From positions 62,001-126,000 of the forward strand of contig JAFVTS010000035.1 in NCBI GenBank assembly GCA_017503105.1: a DNA stretch of 64,000 nucleotides, in the 5' to 3' direction. The notes beneath the pieces are model-generated. The model did no database searches. It saw only the letters and a list, made by a program, of their open reading frames with translations, and was not told where the DNA came from. This stretch comes from Clostridia bacterium. GTDB taxonomy: Bacteria; Bacillota; Clostridia; Oscillospirales; CAG-272. Positions within the stretch are counted from its first letter, which is position 1. The number at the start of each line of letters is the position of its first letter. Both the position numbers and the translations under genes were made by a program. Shown piece by piece: positions 45,693 to 55,060 of this stretch.

Positions 45693-46925
45693 ATGGATAA
45701 GTCTAAGATCAAAAAGGTTGTGCTCGCGTATTCGGGAGGTCTTGATACCTCTATCATCATTCCGTGGCTCAAGGAAAACTATAATAACTGCGAGGTCATC
45801 GCGGTTTCGGGTAACGTCGGTCAGGCTGATGAGCTTGAGGGTCTTGAAGAGAAGGCTCTTAAGACGGGTGCATCTAAGCTTTACGTTCTCGACCTCACCG
45901 AGGAATACGTAAACGATTACATCATTCCCTGCGTAAAAGCAGGCGCTATTTACGAGGATTATCTTCTCGGCACCAGCCACGCGCGTCCTTGCATCGCGAA
46001 GGGGCTCGTTGAGATAGCGAAGAAGGAAAAGGCAGACGCTATCTGCCACGGCTGCACGGGTAAGGGTAACGACCAGGTTCGTTTTGAGCTCACCATAAAG
46101 GCGTTCGCGCCCGATATGCCCATCATTGCTCCTTGGCGTGAGTGGGATATCAAGTCCCGTGATGAGGAGATCGATTATGCCGAGGCGCATAACGTACCTC
46201 TTAAGATAAACCGCGAGACCAACTATTCCAAGGACAAGAACCTCTGGCATCTTTCCCACGAGGGACTTGATCTTGAGGATGCGGGCAACGAGCCTCTTTA
46301 CGAAAAGGACGGCTTCCTTGAAATGGGCATATCTCCCATCAAGGCTCCCGATACTCCCACTTACATCACTCTTGATTTTGAAAAGGGTATTCCCACCGCT
46401 CTTAACGGTGAGAAGATGAGCGCGAAGGATATTATCCTCGCTCTTAACAAGGTCGGCGGTGAGAACGGTATTGGACTTCTTGACATCGTTGAAAACCGTC
46501 TTGTCGGTATGAAGTGCCGCGGCGTTTACGAGACCCCCGGCGGAACTATCCTTTACGAGGCTCACAAGTATCTTGAGACCGTGACTCTTGACAAGATGAC
46601 CGCGCACAAGAAGGCGGAACTTGCTATCACCTACGCGGACCTCGTTTATAACGGTCAGTGGTTCACTCCTCTTCGCGAGGCTCTTGCGGCATTCGTTGAC
46701 AAGACGCAGGAGAACGTAACGGGTAAGGTAAAGCTCAAGCTCTATAAGGGCAACGTGATCAAGGCGGGCGTGTGGAGCGACTATTCGCTTTACTCCGAGG
46801 AGATCGCAACCTTCGGCGAGGATAACGTATACAATCAGGCTGATTCCGCAGGATTTATCAACCTCTTCGGTCTTCCCATCACCGTTCAGGCTCGTCTTAA
46901 CGAGAAGCTTGCGAAGAAAAACTAA
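45693..46925 (+). CDS. argG: argininosuccinate synthase
   Basis: A 410-residue enzyme joining citrulline and aspartate with ATP. The PP-loop [15 protein letters not shown] is at the N-terminus, followed by [31 protein letters not shown] and [17 protein letters not shown] precedes the ATG. It begins the arginine block and is followed after 12 bp by argH. Confidence 0.98.
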
Positions 46926-46937
46926 GGATCTTTCGTT

Positions 46938-48320
46938 ATGAAAAAAATGTGGGCGGGAAGAACCGCGGGCGCATCAGCCGCCCTCGCGGACGATTTTAAT
47001 TCTTCCATTCATATAGACTCAAAAATGTATCGCCACGATATAAAAGGCTCTATGGCGCACGCGGCGATGCTGTCGGCACGGGGGATAATCTCCTCCGCCG
47101 ACGCCGACGCTATCATAGCGGGGCTTGAGGGAATACTTGCCGACATCGACTCGGGCAAGCTTGAAATATCCCCCGACGCCGAGGATATTCATATGTTCGT
47201 TGAGCAGATCCTCACCGAGCGTATCGGCGATGCGGGAAAAAGACTTCACACCTCAAGGAGCAGAAACGACCAGGTAGCGGTTGACACGCGCCTTTATATG
47301 CGTGACGAGGTCGAAGGTGTGAAGAAGCTTATATTCGAGCTTCTTTCGGCAATTCTCGAGAAGGCAAAGGAGCACGCGGCTGACATAATGCCGGGCTACA
47401 CTCATCTTCAAAGAGCTCAGCCCGTAACCTTCGGTCACCACCTTCTTGCCTATGCCGAGATGTTCAAAAGAGATATCGGAAGGCTTGACGACGCTTCGGC
47501 AAGAATGAACGAGTGCCCCCTCGGTGCTCTTGCTCTTGCCGGCACTACTTATGATATCGACAGGCGTATGACTGCAGAGGCACTTGGATTTACGCGTCCT
47601 ACGGCAAACAGTATGGATTCCGTTTCCGACAGGGATTTCTGCGTCGAGCTGCTCTCGGCATTCTCTCTTATAATGACTCACCTTTCGCGCTTCTCCGAGG
47701 AGCTCATCCTTTGGTCGAGCTGGGAGTTTTCCTTCGTTGAGCTTGACGATGCCTATACCACGGGCTCGTCTATAATGCCGCAGAAGAAGAATTCCGATAT
47801 GGCTGAGCTCGTAAGAGGAAAAACGGGCAGGGTCTACGGTGACCTTATGGGCACCTTGACTATGCTCAAGGGGCTGCCCCTTGCTTATAACAAGGATATG
47901 CAAGAGGACAAGGAAGCGCTCTTCGACGGACTTGAAACCGTGAAAAGATGCCTTGAGATATTCGCTCCTATGATAGCAACTATGCGCGTAAAGCCCGAAA
48001 ATATGTATAAGGCGGCTCAGCGCGGCTTCATCAACGCGACCGACCTTGCGGATTATCTTACCAAGCGCGGCACGCCTTTCAGAGCGGCGTACAAGACCGT
48101 CGGCGAGATAGTCGCGCACTGCATAAAAGAGGGAACCGTGCTCGACGAGCTTCCCATTTCGGAGTATAAGAAGTTCTCCGAGGTCTTCTCAGACGATCTT
48201 TATTCCGAGATCTCGCTTGAGACCTGCGTAAAAAAGCGTATCTCCGAGGGCTCAACGGGTCCCGTCAGCGTTCAGGCTCAATTAAATGAACTTGAAAAGT
48301 TCATAAAAAATAAAAATTAA
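46938..48320 (+). CDS. argH: argininosuccinate lyase
   Basis: A 460-residue fumarase-superfamily lyase that releases arginine and fumarate. The N-terminal MWAGRTAGASAALADDFNSSI, HTSRSRNDQVAVDTRLYMR, PGYTHLQRAQPVTFGHHLLAY and the signature GSSIMPQKKNSDMAEL are all present. It is cotranscribed with argG. Confidence 0.98.
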   Translation: MKKMWAGRTAGASAALADDFNSSIHIDSKMYRHDIKGSMAHAAMLSARGIISSADADAIIAGLEGILADIDSGKLEISPDAEDIHMFVEQILTERIGDAGKRLHTSRSRNDQVAVDTRLYMRDEVEGVKKLIFELLSAILEKAKEHAADIMPGYTHLQRAQPVTFGHHLLAYAEMFKRDIGRLDDASARMNECPLGALALAGTTYDIDRRMTAEALGFTRPTANSMDSVSDRDFCVELLSAFSLIMTHLSRFSEELILWSSWEFSFVELDDAYTTGSSIMPQKKNSDMAELVRGKTGRVYGDLMGTLTMLKGLPLAYNKDMQEDKEALFDGLETVKRCLEIFAPMIATMRVKPENMYKAAQRGFINATDLADYLTKRGTPFRAAYKTVGEIVAHCIKEGTVLDELPISEYKKFSEVFSDDLYSEISLETCVKKRISEGSTGPVSVQAQLNELEKFIKNKN

Positions 48321-48339
48321 AAGAAAGAGGTAAAGAAAA

Positions 48340-49224
48340 ATGAAAAAGTTACTCGCACTCACGCTCACACTCGCGCTTGCCGTAACGGCAATGTTCACAT
48401 TCTCCTCCTGCGGATGCAGCGAAAACGTAAGGATCGGCGTTCAGGGCGGAACGACGGGTGAATTTTACGTAAAGGGAAATGCCGATATGCTTCTTCCCGG
48501 TTACACGAATATCGAATGTATGGCATTCAACAACGGCGGTCTTGCAGTAAAGGCTATGCTTGACGGTCAGGTAGACTACGTTATCATTGATAACGAGCCT
48601 GCAAAGCAGCTCCTTGCACAGTACAGCAATGACATTAAGATCATTGACATTCCCCTCACTACCGAGAAGTATGCATACGGTGTAGACAAGGCTCAGCCCG
48701 ACCTTCTTGCGAAAGTAAATGCTTTTATCGCCTCCATCAAGGCTGACGGCACGCTCAAAGCTATTTTCGAAAAATACAACAGCCTCGAATACGATGACGA
48801 AGGTAACGTTGTAGGCGGCGATGACGCTATCGTCGGTGTTTCCAGCGCTCAGAAGAACTCGTCTAACGCGGCAGGTCAGCTCGTTGTTGCAACCAACGCA
48901 GCCTTCGCTCCTTACGAATACAAGAAGGGCGATAAGTTCGCGGGCATAGATATGGAAATAGCACAGCTTTTGGCTAACCATCTCGGACTTGAGCTCGTAA
49001 TTGAGGATATGGACTTCGACGCAGTTGTTACCTCCGTTGGAAAGAACGGCGTTGATATCGCGATGGCAGGACTTTCCGTTACTGCTACACGTCAGAAGGC
49101 GGTCAACTTCTCCGATTCTTATTACGAGGGCGCATATCAGGTGCTTATCGTTAAAAAGGACAATACCGAGTTCGATGCATGTACTACCAAAGAGCAGGTA
49201 GAAGCTATACTCAAGGACAAGTAA
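48340..49224 (+). CDS. amino-acid ABC transporter substrate-binding lipoprotein with permuted lobe order
   Basis: A 294-residue lipoprotein with a lipobox ending at Cys24 (TFSSC). It is clearly of the SBP_bac_3 (polar amino acid) family, but the halves are swapped. Residues about 29-148 hold what is normally the C-terminal half (RIGVQGGTTGEFYVKG, then DYVIIDNEPAKQLL, then DGTLKAIFEKYN). After a flexible linker (about 149-180), residues 181-294 hold the normal N-terminal half (VVATNAAFAPYEYKKG, AGIDMEIAQLLANHLGLEL, NFSDSYYEGAYQVLIVKK). This is a circular permutation. It is followed by its permease and ATPase, within the arginine block, so arginine, glutamine or a related cation/polar amino acid is the likely ligand. 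Confidence 0.9.
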   Translation: MKKLLALTLTLALAVTAMFTFSSCGCSENVRIGVQGGTTGEFYVKGNADMLLPGYTNIECMAFNNGGLAVKAMLDGQVDYVIIDNEPAKQLLAQYSNDIKIIDIPLTTEKYAYGVDKAQPDLLAKVNAFIASIKADGTLKAIFEKYNSLEYDDEGNVVGGDDAIVGVSSAQKNSSNAAGQLVVATNAAFAPYEYKKGDKFAGIDMEIAQLLANHLGLELVIEDMDFDAVVTSVGKNGVDIAMAGLSVTATRQKAVNFSDSYYEGAYQVLIVKKDNTEFDACTTKEQVEAILKDK

Positions 49225-49239
49225 TAATTTTGGTGAGTA

Positions 49240-49938
49240 ATGGAAGCTTGGGATATATTTTATAAGCAGTTCATTACCTATCACGGCTACCGCGACGTTC
49301 TCGACGGTCTTTTAACGACCGTCGAGATTGCCGTCTTAGGGCTTGTAATAGGTATTCTGATAGGTACACTTATAGCCGTTGTTAAGGTTATGCCGAAAGC
49401 AAGCGTTTTCCCGAAGGTGATAGAAAAGATATGCGATTGCTACGTTGCTTTCTTCAGAGGAACACCTATGGTCGTTCAGCTTCTTATCGGCTATTTCGTA
49501 ATTGTGCCGAGCTTGGAGATCTCTGTTAGCGGACTTGTGGTGGCTATAATTATATTCGGATTAAACAGCGGCGCATACGTTTCCGAAATAATGCGCGCAG
49601 GTATTCAATCGGTCGATCGCGGTCAGCTTGAGGCGGGTCGCGCAGTCGGACTTCCGTATTCTGTCGCAATGATGAAGATAGTTATTCCGCAGTCAGTTAA
49701 AAACATTTTACCAACGCTTGGAAACGAATTTATAGTTCTTATAAAAGAAACCTCGATAGTCAGCTTTATAGCCGTCGTCGACGTGACGAAGGCGTTTCGG
49801 TCGATAGGCGATGCGAATTACGAGTACATAATTCCGTATCTTATGCTCGCGGCAATTTATCTTGTGCTCGTGCTTGGTATCACGCTTCTGATCAGACTTT
49901 TGGAGAGGAGGCTTAAGCGCGATGAACGAAAGGCGTGA
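49240..49938 (+). CDS. amino-acid ABC transporter permease (HisM/GlnP type)
   Basis: A 232-residue inner-membrane permease with about five hydrophobic segments. The family block [16 protein letters not shown] and the EAA loop [33 protein letters not shown] are clear. It overlaps the ATPase gene by 17 bp and follows the binding protein by 15 bp. Confidence 0.94.
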
Positions 49939-50785
49939 AAAAGACGTTATAATCTCTGTTCAAGGCTTGGAAAAAAGCTTTGGTAAAAACAATGTTCTCA
50001 AGGGAATTGATCTTGACATAAGAAACGGGGAGATCATCGCAGTAATAGGCCCTTCGGGATGCGGAAAGTCGACACTTCTCCGATGCCTTAACTGTATGGA
50101 GGATCCTACGGGAGGATCCATATATTTTGAGGGCGAGGACCTCGTAGATACGAAGGTTGACATCAATAAGCACCGAGAGCATATAGGAATGGTGTTCCAG
50201 CAGTTCAATCTTTTTAACAACAAGACCGTAATGCAGAACATTACGCTTGCGCCCGTTTATTGCGGATTGAAAAAAATCAAGGCGACAAAAAGATATAATC
50301 GCACCGTTAAATTTAAAAATATATTCAGAAAGATTTTCGGAAAAGCTCCTTTGTCACAAAAAGCAATTGAAAAGGATAAAACGGCGGTTATATCCGAGGC
50401 AAACAGCAGAGCGGAGAGTCTTTTGAAATTTATTGGACTTGAGGATAAGGCGAATGATTATCCCTCAACTCTTTCCGGTGGACAAAAGCAAAGAATAGCT
50501 ATTGCCAGAGCTGTTGCTATGAATCCTAAAGTTATGCTTTTTGATGAGCCGACCTCGGCTCTCGACCCCGAGATGGTCGGCGAGGTTCTCGATCTTATGA
50601 AGGAGCTTGCAAATAACGGTATGACTATGATAGTCGTAACGCACGAAATGGGCTTTGCGCGAGAGGTCGCGAACCGCGTTATCTTCCTCGACGAGGGAAT
50701 AATCGCGGAGGAGGGAACACCCACCGAGGTGTTCGGAAACCCGAAGTCCGAAAGATTGAAAACATTCCTCTCAAAGGTTCTTTAA
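49922..50785 (+). CDS. amino-acid ABC transporter ATPase (GlnQ type)
   Basis: A 287-residue ABC ATPase. Walker [11 protein letters not shown]-loop [10 protein letters not shown], signature LSGGQKQR, Walker [15 protein letters not shown] and the switch VTHEMGFA are present. Compared with the ~240-residue norm there is an insertion of roughly 40 residues after [12 protein letters not shown], rich in Lys and Arg, between the Q-loop and the signature helix domain. It completes the three-gene transporter. Confidence 0.94.
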
Positions 50786-50796
50786 TCGGTTTAGCA

Positions 50797-50810
50797 GTAC
50801 CCCGTGTTAA
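50797..50810 (-). repeat. 14-bp inverted repeat, left copy (upstream of argC)
   Basis: GTACCCCGTGTTAA here is the exact reverse complement of TTAACACGGGGTAC at 56049-56062. The two copies bracket argC to argF. Confidence 0.7.
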
Positions 50811-50834
50811 GTTTTTGATATAATGGAGTTTGAA

Positions 50835-51761
50835 ATGAAAAAGGTATTTATAGACGGAAAGGCAGGCACGACAGGCCTTAGAATCGAAGAAAGACTCTCT
50901 TCTCGTACGGACGTTGAGATAATATCTCTCCCCGAAGAAAAGAGAAAGGATACCGAGGCGCGACGGGAGATGCTCAACCGTGCCGATATAGTATTTCTCT
51001 GCCTTCCCGACGCGGCGGCAAAAGAAGCCGTTCAGATGATCGAAAACCCCGACACGGTGGTAATTGACGCGTCTACTGCGCACAGAACGAATCCCGATTG
51101 GGCTTACGGCTTTGCCGAGCTCGGCGAGGATTTTGAGGAAAAAATAAGAAACAGCAAGCGCATTGCCAATCCCGGTTGCCACGCCAGCGGATTCATAGCG
51201 CTTGTTTACCCCCTCGTAAAGGCGGGTATAATCCCGAAGGACGCACTCCTTTCCGCTCATTCCCTGACAGGTTACAGCGGCGGCGGAAAGTCTATGATAG
51301 CGGAGTACGAGGCGGACGAGCTTGCCCCGCTTCTTGCGGCACCCCGTCAGTACGGAATATCTCAGGCACATAAGCACTTGCCCGAAATGGTCAAGGTGTG
51401 CGGGATAGACACGCCGCCCGTCTTCTCCCCTATCGTCGCTCCGTTCTATTCGGGAATGGAGGTGACCGTTCCGCTCCACAGGGCTGAGATAAACGGAACG
51501 GTGGATGATATAAAAGAAGTATACAAAAAACTCTACACGGGTCCCCTCGTAAAGTATAACGAGGGAATGGACGAGGGTGGTTTCCTCTCTGCGGGACGCT
51601 TTGAGGGGCTTGACTCTATGTCCGTCGAGGTCTTCGGAAACGAGGACAGAATAATTCTGGTAGCAAGATACGACAATCTCGGCAAGGGTGCCTCGGGTGC
51701 CGCCGTTGAATGTCTTAACATAAAGCTTGGGTGCGATAAAGCGCTCGGACTTGAAATCTAA
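50835..51761 (+). CDS. argC: N-acetyl-gamma-glutamyl-phosphate reductase (type 2)
   Basis: A 308-residue enzyme of the short ArgC group (KVFIDGKAGTTGLRI at the N-terminus). It reduces acetylglutamyl phosphate to the semialdehyde. The active-site Cys is in ANPGCHASGF, with SLTGYSGGGKSM downstream. ATG 50835 has GGAG 6 bp upstream; ATG 50823 would add MEFE. A TATAAT-like box lies 15-20 bp before the gene, so a second promoter is possible. Confidence 0.95.
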   Translation: MKKVFIDGKAGTTGLRIEERLSSRTDVEIISLPEEKRKDTEARREMLNRADIVFLCLPDAAAKEAVQMIENPDTVVIDASTAHRTNPDWAYGFAELGEDFEEKIRNSKRIANPGCHASGFIALVYPLVKAGIIPKDALLSAHSLTGYSGGGKSMIAEYEADELAPLLAAPRQYGISQAHKHLPEMVKVCGIDTPPVFSPIVAPFYSGMEVTVPLHRAEINGTVDDIKEVYKKLYTGPLVKYNEGMDEGGFLSAGRFEGLDSMSVEVFGNEDRIILVARYDNLGKGASGAAVECLNIKLGCDKALGLEI

Positions 51762-51779
51762 CTTTTGTGAGGACGAAAA

Positions 51780-52994
51780 ATGAAATTTACAGACGGCGGC
51801 GTTTGTGCCGCGAAAGGCTTTACCGCAAACGGCATACACTGCGGTGTAAGGAAGAATAAAACTAAGCGCGATATAGCGCTCATCTTTTCAGAGAAAAGGG
51901 CGACCGCCGCGGCGGTATACACGTCCAATAAGGTCAAGGGCGCGCCGATAGGCGTTACGCAGGCGAATATCGCGGACGGTTACGCGCAGGCGATCGTTTG
52001 TAACAGCGGAAACGCTAACACCTGTAATGCTAACGGCAAGGAAGTAGCGGAGAAGATGTGCGAGCTCGTAGCAGAAGAGCTTTCCATTCCCGCATCCGAC
52101 GTTGTAGTCGCTTCTACGGGCGTTATCGGTCAGCCGCTTGATATTACTCCAATAAAGAACGGTATGAGCGAGCTTGCTCGCGGTCTTACCCGTGACGGCA
52201 GCCAAAGAGCCGCCGAAGGAATTATGACTACCGACACAAGACTCAAGGAGATCGCCGTCGAATTTGAGGTGGGCGGCAAGGTCTGCAAGATCGGCGGCAT
52301 CGCAAAGGGCTCGGGTATGATACACCCCAACCTTGCGACGATGATAGTTTTCATCACCACCGACTGTGCGATTTCGTCCGAAATGCTTAAGGTAGCTCTC
52401 GCGGGCGACGTAAAGAATTCGTTCAATATGGTAAGCGTTGACGGTGATACGTCGACCAACGACACGGTTGCCGTTCTTGCCAACGGAATGGCGGGAAATG
52501 CCGAAATAGTTGACACGGGTGCGGACTTTGAAGCTTTCGCGAAAGCACTGAACACCGTCACGGTCTATCTTTGCAAGTGCATAGCGGGCGACGGCGAGGG
52601 TGCGACGAAAATGCTCGAGTGCACCGTCAAGGGCGCGAAGGACGAGAAAAACGCAAAGATAATCGCAAAGAGCGTTATTTGTTCTTCTCTCGTTAAGGCG
52701 GCAATGTTCGGCGCGGACGCAAACTGGGGCAGGGTGCTTTGCGCCATAGGCTACAGCGGCGCCGAGGTAGACGTTATGAAGGTCGACGTTTCATTCGTTT
52801 CGAAGAAGGGCGAGATAATCGTTTGCAAAGACGGTGCGGGCGTTGACTTCTCCGAGGAAAAGGCGAAGGAAATACTTCTTGAAGATGAGATCACTATTGC
52901 CGTAAAGCTTGGCGACGGTAACGCCGAGAGCACCGCTTGGGGCTGCGATCTTACTTACGATTACGTAAAGATCAACGGCGATTACAGAACTTAA
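51780..52994 (+). CDS. argJ: bifunctional ornithine acetyltransferase/N-acetylglutamate synthase
   Basis: A 404-residue ArgJ. It moves the acetyl group from acetylornithine to glutamate, recycling it. The self-cleavage site lies in KGSGMIHPNLATMIVFI, between Ala and the nucleophile Thr. The N-terminal GFTANGIHCGVRKNK and the middle NSGNANTCNA segment fit the family. Presence of argJ and absence of argA and argE indicates the cyclic pathway. Confidence 0.97.
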   Translation: MKFTDGGVCAAKGFTANGIHCGVRKNKTKRDIALIFSEKRATAAAVYTSNKVKGAPIGVTQANIADGYAQAIVCNSGNANTCNANGKEVAEKMCELVAEELSIPASDVVVASTGVIGQPLDITPIKNGMSELARGLTRDGSQRAAEGIMTTDTRLKEIAVEFEVGGKVCKIGGIAKGSGMIHPNLATMIVFITTDCAISSEMLKVALAGDVKNSFNMVSVDGDTSTNDTVAVLANGMAGNAEIVDTGADFEAFAKALNTVTVYLCKCIAGDGEGATKMLECTVKGAKDEKNAKIIAKSVICSSLVKAAMFGADANWGRVLCAIGYSGAEVDVMKVDVSFVSKKGEIIVCKDGAGVDFSEEKAKEILLEDEITIAVKLGDGNAESTAWGCDLTYDYVKINGDYRT

Positions 52995-53010: not shown

Positions 53011-53895
53011 ATGTCATTTGAAATCAGTAACGCGCAAAGAGCGGAGATCCTTACGGAGGCTCTCCCTTATATGCAAAAATACTACGGCAAGACCGTCGTT
53101 ATAAAGTACGGCGGAAACGCTATGATCAACGAGGAGCTCAAGCTCCAGGTTATGTCGGATATAGTCCTTCTTCACCTCGTCGGTGTTAAGGTCGTGCTCG
53201 TCCACGGCGGCGGTCCCGAGATCACCGAGATGTTAGGCAAGGTCGGAAAGGAAACAGTGTTCGTCGACGGGCTTCGTGTGACGGATAAGGAATCTGCCGA
53301 GATAGTTCAGATGGTCCTTGCAGGCAAGATCAACAAAAATCTCGTAAATCTTCTCCAGCAGAACGGAGGCCGCGCGATAGGTCTTTCGGGCATCGACGGT
53401 CATATGATCAGCGCCGAGATGAAGAATCCCAAGCTCGGCTACGTCGGAAAGATCACGGACGTTGACGTAACGCCTATCAAGGACGTGCTTGAAAAGGGAT
53501 ATATCCCCGTCGTTTCTACCGTTGGTTGCGATTCCGAGGGCAACGTTTACAACATCAACGCGGATACTGCTGCGGCTTATATAGCGGGCGCGATGCAGGC
53601 GTCAAGACTTCTTATGATGACCGACATCGAGGGGATCCTGCGCGATAGAAACGACCCGACGTCACTTATTCCTTACGTTGATCTTAAGGACACCGAGGAG
53701 CTCTTTGCAAGCGGCGTTATTTCGGGCGGTATGATCCCGAAGGTCGAGTGCTGCGTTGAGGCGATAAATCACGGGGTCAAGAAGGTAATTATTCTCGATG
53801 GACGCGTCTCGCACTCCCTTCTCGTTGAGCTTTTCACCGACGAGGGCGCGGGAACGATGGTAGTGAAGGATAAAAACGATGATTCAAAATTCTAA
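53011..53895 (+). CDS. argB: acetylglutamate kinase
   Basis: A 294-residue amino-acid kinase. VIKYGGNAM, LVHGGGPEI, NAMINEELK, the GKINKNLVNLLQQNGGRAIGLSG segment and NINADTAAAYIAGAMQA are present. The N-terminal helix suggests the hexameric, arginine-inhibited form, though this is inference. It overlaps argD by 17 bp. Confidence 0.97.
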   Translation: MSFEISNAQRAEILTEALPYMQKYYGKTVVIKYGGNAMINEELKLQVMSDIVLLHLVGVKVVLVHGGGPEITEMLGKVGKETVFVDGLRVTDKESAEIVQMVLAGKINKNLVNLLQQNGGRAIGLSGIDGHMISAEMKNPKLGYVGKITDVDVTPIKDVLEKGYIPVVSTVGCDSEGNVYNINADTAAAYIAGAMQASRLLMMTDIEGILRDRNDPTSLIPYVDLKDTEELFASGVISGGMIPKVECCVEAINHGVKKVIILDGRVSHSLLVELFTDEGAGTMVVKDKNDDSKF

Positions 53896-55060
53896 AAATA
53901 CGGATAAAAAATACGTTGCGAATACCTACGCGCGCTTTGATATTGAAATAGCGTCGGGCAAGGGATCGCTCGTTTACGACACGGACGGCAAGGAATATAT
54001 CGACCTTGGCACGGGAATTGCGGTAAACACCTTTGGCGTCGCTGACGAGGAATGGGCAAAGGCAGTTTCAGAGCAGCTTTGCGCCTTTCAGCATACGTCG
54101 AATCTTTATTACTCGGCACCTTGCGCCGAGCTTGCGAAGGCACTTTGTGAAAGAACGGGCGCTAAGAAGGTGTTCTTCGGTAATTCGGGTGCGGAGGCAA
54201 ACGAGTGCGCGATAAAGGTCGCAAGAAAATGGGCGCAGGACACGAAGGGCGCGGGTGATTATAATATCATCACTCTCAAAAACAGCTTCCACGGCAGAAC
54301 GATAACCACCCTGAAGGCGACGGGACAGGACGTGTTCCACACGGATTTCGGGCCCTTTCCCGAGGGATTTCTCTATGCCGAGGCGAATAATTTCGCAAGT
54401 GTAGAGAAGCTTGTAAAAGAGAATAAGTGCTGTGCCGTTATGATGGAGATAGTTCAGGGCGAGGGCGGAGTCCTTCCTCTTTCTCCCGATTTTGTGAAGG
54501 ACGTATGCACTCTTGCCGAGCGCGAGGGGCTTCTCGTGATATTTGACGAGGTCCAGTGCGGCAACGGCAGAAGCGGTGCACTTTACGCTTATATGAATTA
54601 CGGCGTTATCCCCGACGTCGTAACGACTGCAAAGGGGCTTGGCGGAGGTCTTCCCATCGGTGCGGCGATGCTTTTCGAAAAGGTTGAAAACACCCTCGGC
54701 CCCGGTTCTCACGGCTCTACCTTCGGCGGAAACCCAGCGGTCTGCAAAGGCGCTTTGAATATAATAGAGCGCATAGACGAAGAGCTCCTCTCCGAGGTAA
54801 GAGAAAAGAGCAAGTACGTATTCGACACGTTAAGCGGAGCAAAGGGAATAAAGAGCGTCAGCGGTATGGGTCTTATGATAGGCATCGAGACCGAGGCTGA
54901 CTCGTCGCTCGTGCTCGCGGAATGTATAAAGCGCGGCGTTTTGCCGATCAAGGCTAAGACGAAGATAAGGCTTCTGCCCGCTCTTAATATCCCGACGGAG
55001 CTCCTTCACCGTGCCGTTGATATAATAAAAGAAGTAGCAGGAGAAATGGCAAATGGCTGA
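53879..55060 (+). CDS. argD: acetylornithine aminotransferase
   Basis: A 393-residue PLP-dependent class III aminotransferase. [34 protein letters not shown], the PLP Asp in [13 protein letters not shown], and the Schiff-base Lys in [14 protein letters not shown] are clear. It makes acetylornithine from the semialdehyde with glutamate as donor and may also serve lysine synthesis. It overlaps argF. Confidence 0.97.

Follow-up and report, generated by a model that had tools for sequence, protein, structure and literature searches.

Swapped segment order in a family 3 solute-binding lipoprotein from Clostridia and repeated changes of chain order among its relatives

INTRODUCTION

Most inferences of natural circular permutation come from distant pairs of proteins. 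Two main models for its origin are given in the cited part of PMC3320104, permutation by duplication and fission-fusion, the first of which predicts intermediates that are partly trimmed. The window, by which we mean the whole 64,000-nucleotide stretch of Clostridia bacterium DNA analysed here (GCA_017503105.1, contig JAFVTS010000035.1, positions 62,001 to 126,000), encodes a solute-binding lipoprotein of family 3 (SBP_bac_3, PF00497) whose two halves appear in swapped order. The locus raises the question of whether the protein is a circular permutant, whether it is likely to serve a transporter, and how its chain order arose. Segments are named here from the canonical chain: IN is the N-terminal part of lobe I, II is most of lobe II, and IC is the C-terminal part of lobe I. 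The canonical order is IN-II-IC, that of the window protein is II-IC-IN, and the other rotation is IC-IN-II.

RESULTS

Segment order of the window protein

The gene lies at 48340..49224 on the forward strand, as do all features given below, and encodes 294 residues from an ATG start. Alignment indicated a signal peptide extending to lipobox Cys24 (48340..48411); the lipobox was recognized by reading, and the cysteine was invariant in 17 of 17 aligned sequences, the window protein included. Segment II, the canonical middle part, now comes first (residues 31-92, 48430..48615) and runs from a GVQxGTTG strand to a VIIDNEPA helix. Segment IC, the canonical C-terminal part of lobe I, stands mid-chain (residues 99-146, 48634..48777), and joint-length measurement defined a new linker of 34 residues (48778..48879) leading from the former C terminus to the former N terminus. 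Segment IN, the canonical N-terminal part of lobe I, is last (residues 181-276, 48880..49167) and carries TNAAFAPYE...FSDSYY. The protein ends with a lobe-crossing helix (FDACTTKEQVEAILKDK; 49168..49221), recognized by comparison with IC-IN-II relatives.

Three readings agreed on the order. Pfam SBP_bac_3 matched the whole protein at 112.8 bits (cut-off 26.4) as two stretches in the same frame, the first with profile positions 55-129 (G000:C21:110559-110777, 29.8 bits) and the second with positions 1-97 (110880-111173, 86.4 bits). Because these partial matches share profile positions 55-97, the order was also judged with segment HMMs, which were iterated starting from the window protein's own segments. 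In a 296-residue frame, whose numbers less 2 give the ORF residues, the HMMs placed II at 33-94 (E 6e-26), IC at 101-148 (E 1e-23), and IN at 183-278 (E 4e-40), and with residue-shuffled proteins every one of these HMMs gave 0 matches at E < 0.05. Finally, in a phmmer search against solved structures, AncQR (4zv1) aligned by its first half with residues 177-278 and by its second half with residues 29-146. Apart from SBP_bac_3, Pfam at E <= 0.001 reported only Lig_chan-Glu_bd, below its cut-off, and did not place the protein in the Type I / Cluster B sugar-binding family. Thus, the swap of halves proposed by the first-pass annotation was confirmed by all three approaches. Its further expectation, that the final residues lead into the other half, held as well: the same C-terminal helix (FDACTTKEQVEAIL) leads, after a few residues, into the GVQ-GTTG strand in IC-IN-II relatives. 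We describe the window protein as a permuted variant of SBP_bac_3, in the order II-IC-IN instead of the canonical IN-II-IC, and not as an ordinary member.

Transport partners and conservation of the ligand site

The gene stands in a single-strand cluster in the order argG-argH-SBP-permease-ATPase-argC-argJ-argB-argD. Profile searches identified an amino-acid ABC permease, the sole permease gene of the cassette (49240..49938), and a GlnQ-like ABC ATPase (49922..50785). The permease starts 15 nt after the SBP stop and scored 76.8 bits against HEQRo_perm_3TM (cut-off 42.2); the best match of the ATPase was the GlnQ model, at 295 bits and below that model's cut-off of 379. The locus thus has permease and ATPase partners of the polar-amino-acid type, and the ABC genes predicted behind the SBP at first pass are present. 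Among nonduplicate loci, a permease followed the SBP in 25 of 26 II-IC-IN and 84 of 85 IC-IN-II cases, the two exceptions running into a contig end, and an ATPase lay within the flanks examined in 24 of 26 and 80 of 85, respectively. The host genome (96.5% complete) encodes one further SBP_bac_3 protein at E <= 0.001, which is canonical and has its own permease and ATPase. By a simple motif search, the window ATPase (49922-50785) has 85 residues between its Q-loop motif and LSGGQ; this spacing was 47 to 51 in 8 of 8 ATPases beside canonical SBPs and 77 to 85 in at least 30 of 48 beside permuted SBPs, the rest being mostly 47 to 59.

The flanking genes encode arginine biosynthesis: argG, argininosuccinate synthase (45693..46925), and argH, argininosuccinate lyase (46938..48320), upstream, and argC (50823..51761), argJ (51780..52994), argB (53011..53895), and argD (53879..55060) downstream. 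The order argG-argH-SBP-permease-ATPase-argC-J-B-D recurred around the II-IC-IN gene L296, the only other locus with the whole cluster. Parts of it were found at L295 (argG-argH upstream of an IC-IN-II gene), L085 (argG-argH downstream), and L115 (argG), and within the flanks examined no arg genes were seen in 21 of 24 loci. Because the SBP sits inside an arg cluster, a role in arginine-family amino-acid supply, or such a substrate, is possible as a guess from a weak link. The SBP-permease-ATPase block (48340-50785) has a GC content of about 42 to 48%, compared with about 49 to 57% in most surrounding arg genes, a difference that would suit insertion of the transporter among the arg genes.

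Purifying selection and kept ligand-site residues support the suggestion, made at first pass, that the protein is probably in use. In three relatives, Ka/Ks values were 0.06, 0.09, and 0.10, the silent sites being close to saturation; two further pairs were saturated at silent sites. R251 was kept in 24 of 25 canonical, 38 of 38 II-IC-IN, and 83 of 85 IC-IN-II rows, and D84 in all rows of each order (25/25, 38/38, and 85/85). The ligand contacts of the glutamine-binding protein GlnBP include Arg75 and Asp157, as given in the cited part of PMC7400645. D84 aligned with the Asp of a GlnBP (4f3p), and R251 corresponds to Arg75 by the offset of the 1ggg match; by alignment, the equivalents of GlnBP Gly68, Arg75, and Asp157 are G244, R251, and D84, so that the predicted amino-acid contacts are present. 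We conclude that the window protein most likely folds normally and functions as other importer binding proteins do.

Relatives and their chain orders

The search for homologues of the same lobe order proposed at first pass yielded many. Some match to the window protein was found in 51 of 59 near genomes, its own included. L005, L006, and L007 were colinear over nearly the whole protein at about 45 to 51% identity; in L008-L021 and others, window residues ~97-292 came first and residues 28-94 second, which gives the order IC-IN-II. Wider surveys used alignment A1, an IC-linker-IN profile of 22 sequences that no single canonical protein can match end to end. In the window genus (69 genomes), A1 gave 84 matches in 64 genomes, and 31 genomes had a near end-to-end match at E <= 2.8e-52 (one clipped by a contig end), comprising 22 IC-IN-II and 9 II-IC-IN proteins. 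The weaker 53 matches, insofar as they were fetched, included the canonical L206, L293, and L294 and ten distant SBP_bac_3 paralogues. A class survey of 391 genomes gave 57 matches at E <= 1e-42, all permuted (35 IC-IN-II and 22 II-IC-IN), and the 4 matches among 398 evenly drawn genomes of the phylum were the window's genome and three class-mates. A scan of 84,980 named species genomes returned 544 pattern matches, 528 of them relatives, and the best 80 of the 528 were all permuted (63 IC-IN-II and 17 II-IC-IN); these profiles were built from permuted proteins, so that scan and surveys favor permuted forms by design and their counts do not estimate frequency. Record titles of the scanned relatives were mostly from Clostridia, with two spirochaete MAGs (L085 and L115).

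Mobile-element records were also searched. Plasmid records gave 269 matches, none covering 80% of the window protein in one place. Among phage records, 34 matched and 7 did so over 80%, and the ten listed were unannotated faecal 'Bacteriophage sp.' entries. Five short records of this kind (MT838076, MT836004, MT836806, MT838900, and MT837047) matched more than 80% of the window protein in a single colinear stretch; they seem to encode permuted SBPs and may be bacterial fragments. The IMG/VR contig L305 carries a window-type SBP and a permease.

Cut points, joints, and fusions

The permuted proteins differ in where the chain is cut. In the window type, the cut falls between the crossing helix and the GVQ-GTTG strand; in a second kind of II-IC-IN protein (L022, L170, L177, and others), it precedes the crossing helix; and in IC-IN-II proteins, it lies ahead of the strand returning to lobe I. 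The ten distant paralogues of the window genus also look permuted, at other cut points: in L203, L207, and L208, the cut is by eye apparently inside lobe II, with two Pfam stretches in L203; L205 and L211 belong to the same set; and in L202, L204, L209, L210, and L212, the HMM found IN only, the remaining segments being assigned by reading.

The GlnBP domain limits, as given in the cited part of PMC7400645, are residues 5-84 and 186-224 for the large domain and 90-180 for the small domain. By homology with these limits, the joint should connect two old ends that both belong to the large lobe, and the new ends should fall within the small lobe or beside it. Consistent with this, the IC-to-IN joint measured 19 to 34 residues in 161 distinct permuted ORFs, and the II-to-IC loop was 5 to 8 residues in II-IC-IN proteins versus 5 to 7 in canonical ones, so that only the old termini gained a linker. 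These lengths match the geometry expected for an unchanged fold.

Some permuted SBPs are joined to a permease. Three second-kind II-IC-IN SBPs (L183, L189, and L191) carry a fused permease, as Pfam matches showed for L183 and L189, and L015:1408-3036 encodes, in one frame of 543 residues, an IC-IN-II SBP fused to a permease at its lobe II end. Longer single chains were also seen: L200:617-4288 (1224 residues) holds about four binding domains and a permease, and L201:1058-3301 (748 residues) holds about two and a permease. By reading, both arrays begin with segment II and finish with IN ahead of the permease, and their repeat frame is therefore shifted relative to that of GlnPQ.

Number and direction of rotations

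The number of order changes was estimated from a tree of 94 rows (148 before thinning) in which all segments had been put into a common order; it had only 200 columns, and 21 of 91 inner branches were open. The order changed at least 11 times among the three orders, a number to be read with many deep forks open, with L033 and L196 on long branches, and with the II-IC-IN label spanning two cut points; well-supported branches alone forced 7 changes for the IC-IN-II label. A single origin of the permuted forms, modeled as a tree in which one branch separates all 25 canonical rows from the rest, was rejected (p-AU 1.2e-7), as was a single clade of all 35 IC-IN-II rows (p-AU 1.7e-59). Weakly resolved trees of 73 rows from IN only and from II+IC needed 11 and 10 changes, respectively, with just 1 to 4 per label forced by strong branches alone.

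Three trees placed the window clade inside the IC-IN-II group, and because of this nesting the window form is probably a second rotation, from canonical to IC-IN-II and then to II-IC-IN; the single swap pictured by the first-pass annotation is likely too simple in this respect. The window-type clade had a low bootstrap (50) in a sparser tree, and in the 94-row tree the IC-IN-II protein L073 fell among window-type rows (95/86), such that the second rotation may have reverted once or occurred twice. L206 has canonical order and lies inside an IC-IN-II clade (100/99 with four IC-IN-II rows), and its C-terminal tail by eye resembles the IC-IN linker of those four clade-mates. We read L206 as a return to canonical order.

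Both orders at one place in the genus of G175

Closely related genes in both orders were found in the genus of genome G175, where 79 of 85 genomes matched. The match was shortened in 22 genomes, all of which (22/22) were IC-IN-II; the 33 genomes classified among the other 57 were all canonical. In a 55-row tree of this genus with outgroups, 19 permuted rows grouped together (76/85, which is not strong) and adjoined nine canonical rows. A sparser tree put canonical L217 beside permuted L186 (78), which would imply a return. The direction in this genus is likely, not certainly, from canonical to permuted.

DNA comparison of canonical L234 with permuted L193 showed colinearity in the upstream flank (67%), the first 88 nt of the gene, and the downstream flank. 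Between these, canonical positions 115-644 (IN-II) corresponded to 292-806 and positions 652-803 (IC) to 88-239, the two moved blocks being 84 and 82% identical. Three further pairs had the same pattern, except that L217-L186 was without an upstream match. Thus, orthologues with blocks 77 to 84% identical in DNA occur in both orders at the same place, with the same flanks and signal peptide, and differ by a block of about 150 nt, which lies at the 3' end of the mature gene in the canonical order and has moved to its 5' end in the permuted one. In the new linker, the end of the canonical chain (KYIPS) comes first and the N-terminal stretch of the canonical mature protein (such as FTTVEEGKLIMATN) comes next, the sequence that a head-to-tail joint of two copies would give.

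Remains of a second copy were sought. By eye, no in-frame remnant was present in the 150 nt after the stop at the 22 permuted loci of this genus, and permuted loci in general had one binding-protein gene each (flanks of about 1.5 kb; up to 6 kb for L064-L143). Five tandem suspects (G522, G579, and G499, with long open frames, and G084 and G024) all proved to be single canonical copies. A search of the window for duplication scars gave, in 47900-51000, three short direct repeats of two copies each and, in 47000-52000, six short arrays of low complexity; none of them tellingly joined SBP parts. The first-pass annotation had proposed a tandem duplication with loss of the outer halves: the joints in the G175 genus fit that proposal, and the neighbors with two full tandem copies that it envisaged were found neither around the permuted genes examined nor among the five suspects.

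DISCUSSION

The window protein has the order II-IC-IN after its lipobox, relatives share that order and the same permease and ATPase partners, and the family contains three cyclic orders with many changes between them. We hold with considerable confidence that natural circular permutation of a polar-amino-acid (SBP_bac_3) lipoprotein gave rise to this protein and that it folds as a clamp, serves the adjacent permease, and has been rotated twice. The usual two-lobed clamp is predicted because the 34-residue linker joins the old ends in lobe I and the new ends lie in lobe II loops near the hinge. The clamp would close on an alpha-amino acid through the usual Asp and Arg and would hand it to the adjacent permease, and the lipid anchor would thereby have shifted from lobe I to lobe II. 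As to origin, an ancestor would have been rotated to IC-IN-II, most simply by tandem duplication in frame followed by loss of the outer parts, with a second rotation to II-IC-IN in the lineage of the window protein.

Other explanations could account for part of these observations. The genome is a draft of 44 contigs, and the frame could in principle be a chimera of two contig pieces, an eventuality raised by the first-pass annotation. We give this practically no credence, as the gene lies inside a 155,716-base contig, the same order and partners recur in other assemblies, including the whole arg-SBP-transporter arrangement in L296, and IC-IN-II proteins occur in records not labeled as MAGs, such as Acetivibrio straminisolvens JCM 21531 (L091) and Blautia sp. 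Marseille-P3201T (L120); an assembly chimera is ruled out in substance by this recurrence. Segment order alone cannot discriminate rotation from a joining of lobe II from one paralogue with lobe I from another. Such a two-parent chimera is nevertheless very improbable, since the weakly resolved IN and II+IC trees give the window protein the same nearest relatives and its C-terminal crossing helix matches the helix ahead of segment II in sister proteins. It is also unlikely, if slightly less so, that a domain-swapped dimer is the only folded form of the permuted chain or that its lobes act as separate units. In favor of such a reading, the lobes are nearly contiguous in the II-IC-IN chain; against it, 34 residues are ample for termini within one lobe, and the sugar-binding permutant TpMglB-2 is described in the cited part of PMC4990184 as monomeric and as changing its conformation when ligand binds.

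A real rotation could also have come about without a tandem copy, through cut-and-paste movement of a block or through gene fission and fusion. The displacement of about 150 nt between colinear flanks in the G175 genus would suit such a move, as would the lack of an in-frame second-copy remnant within 150 nt of the stop and the failure to find a tandem intermediate. However, the linker in that genus, KYIPS followed by the mature N-terminal stretch, is like a head-to-tail joint, and tandem arrays of such domains do exist (L200 and L201). We regard this route as possible though doubtful, and we favor rotation through a tandem copy.

The closest precedent is TpMglB-2 (Tp0684), described in the cited part of PMC4990184 as a glucose-binding lipoprotein that is a natural circular permutant of a Type I sugar-binding protein. 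The class name proposed for it is 'Type Ic / Cluster Bc', and its relatives occur mostly in treponemes and Gram-positive bacteria. Identity between its last 100 residues and the first 100 of EcMglB is 13%, and a possible connection with membrane anchoring is raised by its authors (PMC4990184). Both TpMglB-2 and the window protein are natural circular permutations of an ABC-importer binding lipoprotein, and natural permutation was thus already known. TpMglB-2 retains binding and conformational change (PMC4990184). It is a Type I / Cluster B sugar-binding protein, whereas the window protein belongs to family 3, for amino acids. For TpMglB-2 one permuted order is described in the cited part of its source, whereas SBP_bac_3 has three orders with repeated changes traceable in sequence. 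Among the open-access papers listed, TpMglB-2 was the only natural permuted binding protein recognized, and none on permuted SBP_bac_3 proteins was found.

Canonical SBP_bac_3 proteins (GlnH, ArtJ, HisJ, and AncQR 4zv1) share all three segments, the ligand-site residues, and the permease and ATPase partners with the window protein; they have the order IN-II-IC with free old termini and no IC-IN linker, whereas in the window protein the old termini are linked. The GlnPQ-type tandem SBD-permease 6h30 likewise has IC followed by IN along its chain, there of one domain and then the next, and among the best 60 of 264 structure matches it was the only one whose best stretch crossed the IC-IN joint of profile A1. 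We take 6h30, from its description, to contain two complete canonical domains in tandem and not one permuted domain. The window protein, by comparison, has one set of segments and a separate permease gene. No solved structure of a permuted SBP_bac_3 protein was recognized among the same best 60 of 264 matches. Within the literature covered, permuted SBP_bac_3 proteins are a new instance of this known phenomenon, and they are unusual for the number of rotations and for the closely related pairs.

Close pairs in both orders in the G175 genus make the origin, intermediates, stability, and fitness of a permutation directly testable. If the many rotations are true, they raise the question of why the SBP_bac_3 fold in Clostridia is so free in chain order, and they would put natural permutants on offer for sensor design. 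A further reading, which we offer tentatively and think less probable than not, is that the fold has been rotated repeatedly and reversibly in place in Clostridia, from canonical to IC-IN-II to II-IC-IN and back, with selection acting on the tether site, so that an anchor or permease fusion would move from lobe I to lobe II without a change in the binding site. If such reversible rotation in place is true, two unrelated classes of tethered binding proteins, this one and that of TpMglB-2, would have arrived at rotation convergently.
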